From positions 186,001 to 250,000 of the forward strand of contig NC_018020.1 in the NCBI RefSeq assembly GCF_000266885.1: a stretch of DNA of 64,000 bases. The letters are read 5' to 3'. This document shows, one piece after another, positions 2,175-28,985 of this stretch. The notes under the pieces are model-generated. The model ran no database searches, was not told where the DNA came from, and was given only the letters and a program-made list of their open reading frames with translations. Both the position numbers and the translations under genes were made by a program. Positions within the stretch are counted from its first letter, which is position 1; each line of letters starts with the position of its first letter. This stretch comes from Turneriella parva DSM 21527. GTDB lineage: Bacteria > Spirochaetota > Leptospiria > Turneriellales > Turneriellaceae.

Positions 2175-2212
2175 GACACAAAAAAAGGGCCATGCGGCCC
2201 TTTTTTTGTGTC
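2175..2212. terminator. Bidirectional intrinsic terminator
   Basis: A perfect 17-bp inverted repeat with a 4-nt ATGC loop combines a GGGCC/GGCCC core with flanking A7 and T7 runs, so it has a U-tract in either direction. It lies between ftsK and the rlpA-side repeat element. It most likely ends the leftward rlpA transcript before the ftsK start. Confidence 0.85.
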
Positions 2213-2234
2213 ATATGGCTAATACTGTGATAAA

Positions 2235-2387
2235 CAGGCTCCGGCCCGATTACCGAAAAAGCGCAAAGTCTCGGCATTTGCTTCCGCAAACGCCTGCTAA
2301 AGCGCTACGCGGCATGAGCCGCTTCGCTGCTTTGCGCTTTATTCGGGGCCGTGCGCCTGCTAAGCGGTTCCATTCAGGAACCGCTTA
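2235..2387 (-). repeat. Structured 3'-end element, copy A
   Basis: On the minus strand the element starts at the rlpA TAA stop and ends at GGAGCCTG. It has an 11-bp hairpin (TAAGCGGTTCC/GGAACCGCTTA), a constant AGCAGGCG segment, a long closing stem (CCGAA.AAAGCGCAAAG with CTTTGCGCTTTTTCGG), two inner hairpins, and the constant GCGCTTTAGCAG between them. The same layout with different but still complementary stems recurs at 28825-28985. Function unknown; it could be an RNA element or a non-autonomous palindromic repeat. Confidence 0.7.
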
Positions 2388-3311
2388 GCCCACTTTGCCG
2401 CGGTACATTACCTCAACACCGTCGTCGCTGAGTTTCTTTAAGAAATCCTTCGCTTGTTTGCGTGATTTGAAATCACCGAGACAGACAAAGTGCCACTTTC
2501 CATTGGTTGCGATAAATGCTTTTTGAGGATACGCTTCGAGAATTTCATCGCGATGGCGCTCAGCGTTTACTTTTTTCTTGAACGCGCCAACCTGTACGGT
2601 GAAACCCTTTGGCTTTTTGCCATCGAGAAACGTGATTTTCTCTTTGCCTGAGCCGGCTGATTTGATTTTTGTATCGTCTTCTTCATCCGCAGCGTCATCG
2701 GCCTCGAGGTCGGCAGCAGGTTCTATGATTTCTTCTGAAGCCTCACGCTTCTTCTTTGATTTTTTAGCTTTACCTGCCTTGGCCGACGCACAGATGCCGT
2801 CCTTGCCAACGTCGGCCTCGTCACATCCTTGTGACTTCGCCATAAAGTTGTCCTCACCGGCCTGCACCAGCTCAAGCTGCACTTTTGCTGTTCCCTTCTC
2901 GGCAAAACCGAGCTCGCGGGCGGCGGCAAAACTCACGTCCATAACGCGGCCTTCGACGTAGGGCCCGCGGTCGTTCACTTTCACCATCGCCTTCTTGCCG
3001 TTTTCAAGGTTCTTGACGAGAACGAGTGAATTCATCGGGTAATCGCGGTGTGCAGCGGTCATCTTATTCATATCAAACAGGTCGCCGCTCGCCGTCGGCC
3101 TGCCCTGCAGCTCTTTGCCGTACCATGCAGCATAACCTTCTGCTGTCAGCGCAGGTGTTTTTTCTTCGCCCATTGTGCCGTCTTGCAGAACAGGGTCTTC
3201 ACCGCGGTTGGCGACGCCGGTTACAGCAGGGTCATTGGGGTTGGTACGCGCCTGCGGTGCGCGGCAGGCGATGAGCGCAAACATGGCAATAAACAGAAGT
3301 GAGGCTTTCAT
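2385..3311 (-). CDS. rlpA: RlpA-like lipoprotein with DPBB and SPOR domains
   Basis: Predicted outer-membrane lipoprotein of 308 residues that acts on septal or denuded peptidoglycan. The signal peptide ends in the lipobox LIAC (Cys16). Residues about 60-150 form the double-psi beta-barrel (AWYGKELQGRPTASGDLFD, then VKVNDRGPYVEGRVMDVS), which carries the catalytic Asp in RlpA enzymes. A Lys/Glu-rich linker follows, and residues about 233-305 are a SPOR domain (FTVQVGAFKKK). It lies downstream of lpxB on the same strand and upstream of ftsK, a fitting division and envelope context. Its stop codon is the first codon of structured element A. Lytic transglycosylase activity is known in some RlpA proteins but not in all. 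Confidence 0.9.
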   Translation of the reverse strand: MKASLLFIAMFALIACRAPQARTNPNDPAVTGVANRGEDPVLQDGTMGEEKTPALTAEGYAAWYGKELQGRPTASGDLFDMNKMTAAHRDYPMNSLVLVKNLENGKKAMVKVNDRGPYVEGRVMDVSFAAARELGFAEKGTAKVQLELVQAGEDNFMAKSQGCDEADVGKDGICASAKAGKAKKSKKKREASEEIIEPAADLEADDAADEEDDTKIKSAGSGKEKITFLDGKKPKGFTVQVGAFKKKVNAERHRDEILEAYPQKAFIATNGKWHFVCLGDFKSRKQAKDFLKKLSDDGVEVMYRGKVG

Positions 3312-27729: not shown

Positions 27730-28827
27730 ATGCACAACCCACCAGAAGCCGATGCAGCAGCCAAGGCGCGCAAAATTATCGATCACGCACAATTGCACCA
27801 GATTACCGAGAAACTGTTTTCCCGTCTGCCGATTCACATCGTTGAAAATAACCAGAAGAATCCGGCGCGCGCACTACAGTATGTACACCCGCATCTCGAG
27901 ATTCTACACCAGATGGCGCCGGCGCAATCGCGCACGCTGCTCTTGACGAAAGACGACCATTCGATGATGCTCGAATGCAGCGTTATCAGCAGAACCGATA
28001 AGGGCACTGAAATTCTCAAGCCGCTGCGGCTCTACCTGACAAAGCGCGGCATTCGCCATGAAAACCGCGTGGCCATTTCGGGCAGCGAACTTGCGGGCCA
28101 GGTGCGCAATGTGATTCCGCATCCCGAATTTTACCGGGTGAACGCAGGCACGAGCAGCGGCCGCGATGCAACGCTGTTACAATACGCAAATGCCATTAAA
28201 GAGCTCGTGCCAGAGTGCGTGGTGAAGTTCGAGCTACAGCGCACAAACCGACTGACCGTGCGCATGAAAAAGCTGCAAGAATTTAACCTTCCGGTTTTTG
28301 CACCCGACATGACGCGGCAGAGGCAGGGCGACGAACAAAATGTTGTTGCGATGCCGCATAGTGAATATGAACAGGTTATGCGCTCCGACGGTCTGCCGGG
28401 CGACTATATCGGCGAAATTTGCGAGCCGCTGCGCTATCGTGGCGTACTGATTGTCGGTTATGTGCAGGTATTCAGTACACGGGCGCCGCTGAATATCAGC
28501 CAATACCATACCGTGCGGCAACTGATGCGGCGCCTCGAGCGCGATCTCGACGCCAAGAGGTGTTACCCAGATAACCCGATATCGGGTAAAATCGTCGACG
28601 TGAGCCACGGCGGGTTAGGGTTTATCTACACCGGGCAGCGCAGCGTTCTCTCGACTGCCGGCGTCGGCGATAAGATCGTGCTCGATGCGCACTTCGCAGC
28701 CGAAAACGTCGCGACTTTCAGCGGCAAAATCATGAACATGACCTCGCTTGAGAACGGCCGGCGTTACGGCATTGAATTTGAAGGCCTCTCAGAAGCCGGC
28801 GAAACCGCACTCAAAGCCATGCTCTAA
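27730..28827 (+). CDS. PilZ-domain protein of spirochaete type
   Basis: 365 residues. The C-terminal third is a PilZ domain (SGKIVDVSHGGLGFIYTGQ ... AENVATFSGKIMNMTSLENGRRYGIEFEGLSEAGETAL) with the DxSxxG motif. The upstream arginine motif of classical c-di-GMP binders is not obvious; LERDLDAKRCYPDN is in about the right place but does not match RxxxR. The N-terminal part resembles the DUF1577-like region of leptospiral PilZ proteins (recalled, not checked). Its TAA stop begins structured element B. Confidence 0.72.
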   Translation: MHNPPEADAAAKARKIIDHAQLHQITEKLFSRLPIHIVENNQKNPARALQYVHPHLEILHQMAPAQSRTLLLTKDDHSMMLECSVISRTDKGTEILKPLRLYLTKRGIRHENRVAISGSELAGQVRNVIPHPEFYRVNAGTSSGRDATLLQYANAIKELVPECVVKFELQRTNRLTVRMKKLQEFNLPVFAPDMTRQRQGDEQNVVAMPHSEYEQVMRSDGLPGDYIGEICEPLRYRGVLIVGYVQVFSTRAPLNISQYHTVRQLMRRLERDLDAKRCYPDNPISGKIVDVSHGGLGFIYTGQRSVLSTAGVGDKIVLDAHFAAENVATFSGKIMNMTSLENGRRYGIEFEGLSEAGETALKAML

Positions 28828-28985
28828 CAGGTTCCCGAAAAAGGAACCTGTTAGCAGGCGAACGGAACCGAAAAAGTGAAAAGCAGCAAAGTCGCTTTGC
28901 TTCAAAGCGACGACGCGCTTTAGCAGTCGTTTGCGCTGGCAAACGACGAGGCTTTTCACTTTTTCGGGAGTTCTTCCGGAGCCTG
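28825..28985 (+). repeat. Structured 3'-end element, copy B
   Basis: Starts at the stop codon of the PilZ gene with TAACAGGTTCC/GGAACCTGTTA (11-bp stem). It is followed by AGCAGGCG, a 17-bp perfect closing stem (CCGAAAAAGTGAAAAGC with GCTTTTCACTTTTTCGG), the inner hairpins GTCGCTTTG/CAAAGCGAC and GTCGTTTGC/GCAAACGAC, the constant GCGCTTTAGCAG, and the ending CCGGAGCCTG. It is homologous to 2235-2387, with stem changes that keep pairing. Confidence 0.72.

Follow-up and report, generated by a model that had tools for sequence, protein, structure and literature searches.

Folded mini-transposons are well known from bacteria, and the usual view is that their structure is a by-product of palindromy. 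The element reported here resembles the pneumococcal BOX and RUP repeats, which are described, in the parts of PMC3049150 drawn on here, as small, non-autonomous and modular, with strongly folded transcripts and an over-representation between convergent genes; like them, it combines inverted repeats with target duplication. Further likenesses are found in the ERIC (IRU/RU-1) and Correia/NEMIS repeats, imperfect palindromes of 100-190 bp that occur in intergenic and transcribed regions and sometimes alter mRNA processing (PMC2229807 and PMC3049150, in part), and in the CIR repeats of Caulobacter, which consist of two arms and a conserved linker and not of a single hairpin (PMC2229807, in part). 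REP/BIME sequences with their RAYT (Y1) transposases are likewise dispersed extragenic palindromes located 3′ of genes.

Here we describe two copies, A and B, of a repeat in a window of 64,000 nucleotides, the whole stretch of Turneriella parva DSM 21527 DNA that was analyzed. We conclude that they are probably copies of a non-autonomous, MITE-like transposon of Turneriella and its close relatives that carries a strand-specific, RNA-like structured core. The features of the two copies are as follows, in window coordinates.

2235..2389, minus strand: the complete copy A, comprising leading hairpin, outer stem and core; host locus, 3′ region of the RlpA-like gene at 2385-3311
2359..2389, minus strand: leading hairpin (hp0) of copy A, GCTAAGCGGTTCC-TGAAT-GGAACCGCTTAGC, which includes the host stop TAA (2385-2387)
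2268..2330, minus strand: conserved core of copy A, GCAG-hp1-GCGCTTTAGCAG-hp2-CGAGAC
2294..2305, minus strand: invariant linker GCGCTTTAGCAG of copy A, which joins the two inner hairpins
28824..28985, plus strand: copy B, whole element, with the PilZ-domain gene (27730-28827) on one side and, on the other, a gene named by eye as leucyl-tRNA-synthetase-like
28824..28854, plus strand: leading hairpin (hp0) of copy B, CTAACAGGTTCC...GGAACCTGTTAG, which provides the stop TAA (28825-28827), a TAA not present in the sister-species orthologue
28883..28952, plus strand: conserved core of copy B, GCAG-hp1-GCGCTTTAGCAG-hp2-CGAGGC
28915..28926, plus strand: invariant linker GCGCTTTAGCAG of copy B

Both copies lie where the original prediction had placed them (2235-2387 on the minus strand and 28825-28985 on the plus strand), and each part that it described was found in the sequence: a start at the TAA of the upstream gene, a leading hairpin, AGCAGGCG, a long closing stem, two inner hairpins flanking an identical GCGCTTTAGCAG, and a terminal CCGGAGCCTG. 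The upstream genes are unrelated: by Pfam, that of copy A, which is RlpA-like, has DPBB and SPOR domains and that of copy B a PilZ domain. The alignment was also as had been given, with 76% identity between A and B across the element, and the folding energies fell well beyond those of dinucleotide shuffles, with z = -8.0 (copy A) and -9.5 (copy B). Just past copy A, where reading directions converge, window positions 2178-2216 hold an intrinsic-terminator-like hairpin that is flanked on each side by runs of T/A (acaaaaaaagggccatgcggccctttttttgt).

With copy A as the query, a nucleotide search turned up about 30 places in the T. parva genome (4,409,302 bases, 4.41 Mb, on two contigs). A covariance model of the element was built from 21 T. 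parva copies, and the search of the genome and its relatives that had been proposed as a check returned further copies, with 52 matches at E<1e-4 in T. parva itself. Among 60 relatives searched with the model, the element occurred in each of the other six Turneriella genomes (9, 8, 20, 10, 25 and 2 copies) and in one further genus of the same family (6 copies); it was not found in the other 53 genomes, five of which belong to the same family and 48 to the order, class and phylum. A strict core pattern applied to about 85,000 species genomes matched only Turneriella-related contigs and two Flavobacteria, where the fold is absent and the matches were rejected as chance. Viral contigs gave no match to the element, no Rfam family matched it at gathering or relaxed thresholds, and no mention of it was found in the literature searched, subscription journals lying outside that search. 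The element is previously unnamed. It is short, multicopy (52 copies) and without coding capacity, no protein recurs next to its copies, and no replichore or positional bias of the copies was seen. A gene travelling with the element was considered and rejected, as the top neighbour clusters were translations through the element and the rest were common domains.

What the copies share is an unpaired skeleton, GC-AG-hp1-GCTTTAGCA-(G hp2 C)-GAG-GC, and the outer stem that closes it varies between copies. In the copies parsed, hp1 occurred as 50 different strings and the 5′ arm of hp2 as 31, and extra hairpins were seen at two fixed places, the interval between hp2 and AGGC (L016, L021, L024) and that between CTTTAG and CAG (L107, L190). 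Copies of the A/B subfamily have the additional leading hairpin hp0 and the ends CAGG...CCTG. Their closest pair is 95% identical and their median pair 84%, so the last burst of this subfamily was not very recent. At L058 and L026 (T. parva C1 ~3,447,700), a core (GCGCTTTAGCAG) is nested beside a second core in a single long stem, an arrangement that resembles the insertion of one element in a hairpin of another.

The element is mobile. Copies in the sister species G004, G005 and G006 have terminal inverted repeats (about 22 bp, GGGCGCGSGATTTGTTAGGGGG, in G004 and G005, with related ends in G006) and are flanked by 8-bp direct repeats, among them GGTTGCTG, ACGGTTGC, CTGGATAG and GTTACCTA. When the two ends of the same copy were compared, the 8-bp duplication was perfect in 9/23 pairs and had one mismatch in 6, whereas control ends taken from different copies gave 0/506 perfect matches. 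A 74-bp derivative (L249) lacks the core and keeps both the inverted repeats and a duplication, TGCAAAAG, indicating that the core is dispensable in cis for movement. Clean duplications are confined to subfamilies other than A/B, and the only T. parva copies with a duplication within one mismatch are L092 and L107. Target duplication is suggested for the A/B subfamily, which has only the short inverted repeats CAGG...CCTG; four copies of this type have identical 4-bp ends (L037, L041, L042, L102), with direct and inverted repeats distinguishable only in L041 (TTAG) and L102 (CTAA). Our first reading, a TA-only target duplication, was abandoned after the 8-bp duplications were found in other subfamilies.

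The nearest relative, G003, was also searched for the sequences that flank 21 of the T. parva copies. The T. parva copy was absent from the sister-species site for L035 (copy B), L036, L037, L038, L039, L049 and L052, decayed relics stood at the sites of L050 and L053, and the sites of L043 and L046 were filled; no site corresponding to copy A was found in this genome. The G003 orthologue of copy B's PilZ protein has no element and its reading frame runs a few codons longer, from which it follows that the TAA of copy B arrived with the insertion. The inverted repeats and 8-bp duplications of the sister species, together with presence and absence at orthologous sites, support the mobile palindromic element that the original prediction had offered as one of two possibilities. 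On one G003 contig (L149, first ~260 bases of C611), the site of T. parva L046 has no element and carries a perfect palindrome of 18 bp; the left arm is ordinary flank, and the right arm repeats it in inverted form, which suggests that flanking DNA underwent inverted duplication. At L049 (T. parva C1 ~1,191,600), the right arm of the leading hairpin is complementary to the 3′ end that the upstream gene already had (GCCGCCTAA), and the matching place in G003 (L137) has a different simple hairpin.

Two copies are insufficient to prove covariation, and the claim that the stems of A and B differ and still pair gains its proof from an extension to 21 copies of T. parva and 54 of other species. In the copies from which the model was built, pairing was seen in 93.4% of cells, compared with 79.6% in shuffles. 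The 54 other-species copies, which stood outside model building, have stems of almost completely different sequence with pairing retained: 92.6% of pairs hold, compared with 64.4% when shuffled, 406 cells are double-changed against 112, and double changes occur in 24/26 pairs, counts that lean towards the model because the alignment was fitted to it. The further claim that the unpaired segments are the conserved ones is likewise strongly supported.

Comparison between species showed that old copies are under constraint where they stand. For eight T. parva copies, an orthologous or probably orthologous copy occupies the corresponding position in another species; such counts depend on few pairs, and MAG contigs are often broken at repeats. 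Across the three closest orthologous pairs, changed letters amounted to 3/356 paired vs 24/147 unpaired (p = 5e-11). In L063/L232, with about 78% flank identity, pairing was kept in 5 double and 5 single-side changes and broken in 4 pairs. The copies L061/L208, behind the same tRNA gene, have almost wholly different stems and both fold around the same core. These and L022/L191 lie directly behind tRNA genes at sites conserved between species, with hairpin 1 or entire stems exchanged.

With respect to gene context, the 52 copies divide into 25 with convergent neighbours, 22 with tandem neighbours (10 on the same strand and 12 on the opposite one) and 5 with divergent neighbours. In the 64-kb window, 19% of gene pairs are convergent, and their gaps account for 30% of the intergenic length, the background being drawn from this window and the flanks of the loci; copies are enriched in convergent gaps and depleted in divergent ones, and tandem pairs show no strand bias. 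The convergent enrichment is the pattern to be expected of a tolerated insertion, as argued for pneumococcal repeats in the portion of PMC3049150 considered here. The other possibility raised at the outset, a new 3′-end RNA family, fares poorly in this context. If each copy belonged to its upstream gene as a cis-acting 3′-untranslated RNA that protects or terminates the mRNA, a fold under selection, the many copies directly behind stop codons, the intrinsic-terminator-like hairpin next after copy A and the conservation of old copies at their sites behind tRNA genes (L022/L191, L061/L208) would be accounted for. However, the unbiased orientation to tandem genes (10 vs 12) disfavours such a role, as do the five copies between divergent genes, the unrelated host genes, and the mobility, target duplications and species-specific presence of the element, and we consider it unlikely.

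Targeting of stop codons holds for the A/B subfamily and does not extend to the family. Among 16 left ends of this subfamily with a TAR triplet, classified by eye, 13 coincide with the in-frame stop of the upstream gene, compared with stops at about 21% of the available (intergenic or stop) YTAR sites. For L037, L039, L042 and L052, the G003 site lacks the copy and has a stop, TAA or TAG, in the equivalent position. The 8-bp target duplications of other subfamilies follow no stop-codon rule; the original prediction had expected further copies to preserve pairing and to begin at stop codons, and the former was found while the latter fails for part of the family. The anchoring of A and B could come from a YTAR-like target combined with ends of the element at which a TAR codon is re-formed. 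Because YTAR holds TAA or TAG on both strands and the ends restore TAR, insertions in or next to stop codons would be harmless and survive, which offers a simple explanation for harmless insertion exactly on a stop codon.

Mismatches within the stems bear on the strand that folds. The outer (core) stems have 58 G.T vs 33 A.C (p 0.011, with scoring that treats all mismatches alike) and hp2 has 17 vs 1, or 13 vs 0 minus one misfolded copy, whereas the terminal repeats show no G.T excess (9 vs 23). Since G.U exceeds A.C in core stems and not in terminal repeats, pairing seems to be selected on one strand, in the element's own direction. Neither a constraint on double-stranded DNA nor arm-to-arm correction would favour G.T, and the excess thus points to a folded strand in that direction; the asymmetry fits RNA and single-stranded DNA alike. 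Slightly less probable again than a cis-acting RNA is a reading in which the covariation is a mutational by-product, the arms of a palindrome correcting each other by template switching in replication with no selected structure. Such correction would suit the unusually perfect stems whose two sides change together, the stems that reach into host flanks (hp0 of L049, matching the pre-existing gene end GCCGCCTAA, and the flanks of L036) and the sister-species contig L149 with its palindrome built from its own flank. Yet it predicts equal G.T and A.C, against 58:33 and 13:0 in the core and 9:23 in the terminal repeats, and it leaves the invariant unpaired letters across copies with unrelated stems unexplained. 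The selected structure claimed from copies A and B is supported strongly, and the strand could be RNA or single-stranded DNA.

A search for the mobilizing enzyme found no transposase with matching ends among the Y1, RVT_1 and IS1595 types in carriers or DDE_Tnp_1 in T. parva only. Y1, reverse transcriptase and IS1595-type genes are not common to all carriers, several of which are incomplete MAGs. The ends of the IS1595-like genes do not match, nor do those of the single DDE_Tnp_1 element, for which T. parva alone was searched, and open reading frames adjoining single terminal repeats, examined for an autonomous partner, held no transposase. The Y1 transposases were rejected since their loci have other palindromes and no core of the element. 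Three such genes in T. parva C1 (L031, ~4,295,900; L032, ~25,000; L033, ~1,284,600) and those at L163 and L167 in sister species lie between near-identical 30-bp perfect palindromes with centres GTTTAAAC or AATTAATT, for example TGTAGGGGTAGGTTTAAACCTACCCCTACA; these genes and palindromes are a separate RAYT/REP-like system. A retron or reverse transcriptase link was judged improbable as well, because the gene is not common to carriers and no similar structure lies beside it. The reverse transcriptase of T. parva (L159, C1:3,621,168-3,621,824) matches type III-A retron models (PADLOC E 5e-160) and has a transposase-like gene nearby in opposite orientation; nothing like the element was found in the region upstream of it, the part of the locus that was compared. 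An element of REP/RAYT or retron type, moved via folded single-stranded DNA or reverse transcription, is very improbable: three Y1 transposase genes and a retron reverse transcriptase of type III-A-like kind are present in T. parva, and strand-specific folding suits a single-stranded intermediate, but a different 30-bp perfect palindrome flanks most Y1 genes examined, nothing resembling the element stands beside the reverse transcriptase gene, no Y1 or reverse transcriptase gene was detected in carriers G003, G004 and G009, and HUH/Y1 transposition is not expected to produce 8-bp duplications.

We favour the mini-transposon with a structured core. A transposase acting in trans would move the element via its terminal repeats, and the core would travel as a passenger and function in folded, single-stranded form, most likely as RNA when a copy is transcribed. 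It may form a compact junction in which the invariant unpaired AG, GCTTTAGCA and GAG serve as the site of contact, and the retention of old copies may reflect a local action of the fold, for example in mRNA 3′-end protection or processing. A more speculative possibility, which we hold only tentatively, is a transposon-dispersed structured RNA whose core, through its invariant junction, binds a cellular or element-specific partner and, seeded in the 3′ regions of dozens of genes, forms a post-transcriptional regulon, or whose core RNA is used by transposition itself.

The element also differs from these known repeats. REP/BIME sequences measure 20-40 bp and carry GTAG/CGTC tags, as stated in the part of PMC3733652 drawn on here, unlike the Turneriella element, and the Y1 genes of T. 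parva are surrounded by a separate palindrome set. The conserved GANTC of CIR sits in a loop, and CIR as described in the cited part of its source has no such enclosing stem and no motif in common with our element. For ERIC and Correia/NEMIS, 5′TA3′ termini are listed, unlike those found here, and the cited portions of their descriptions include no branched covarying core and no stop-codon capture of the Turneriella kind. The target of RUP is TA (PMC2229807, in part), compared with the 8-bp duplications in Turneriella, and no sequence relation to BOX or RUP is shown; unlike in these repeats, the core stems of the Turneriella element diverge almost wholly, with compensatory changes round invariant junction letters and more G.U than A.C. 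Folded MITEs are already known, and what is new is such compensatory stem turnover round an invariant junction. Stem turnover with pairing held, a G.U preference on one strand, fixed unpaired letters and constrained old copies make this a testable case of a mobile element with a selected RNA-like domain.
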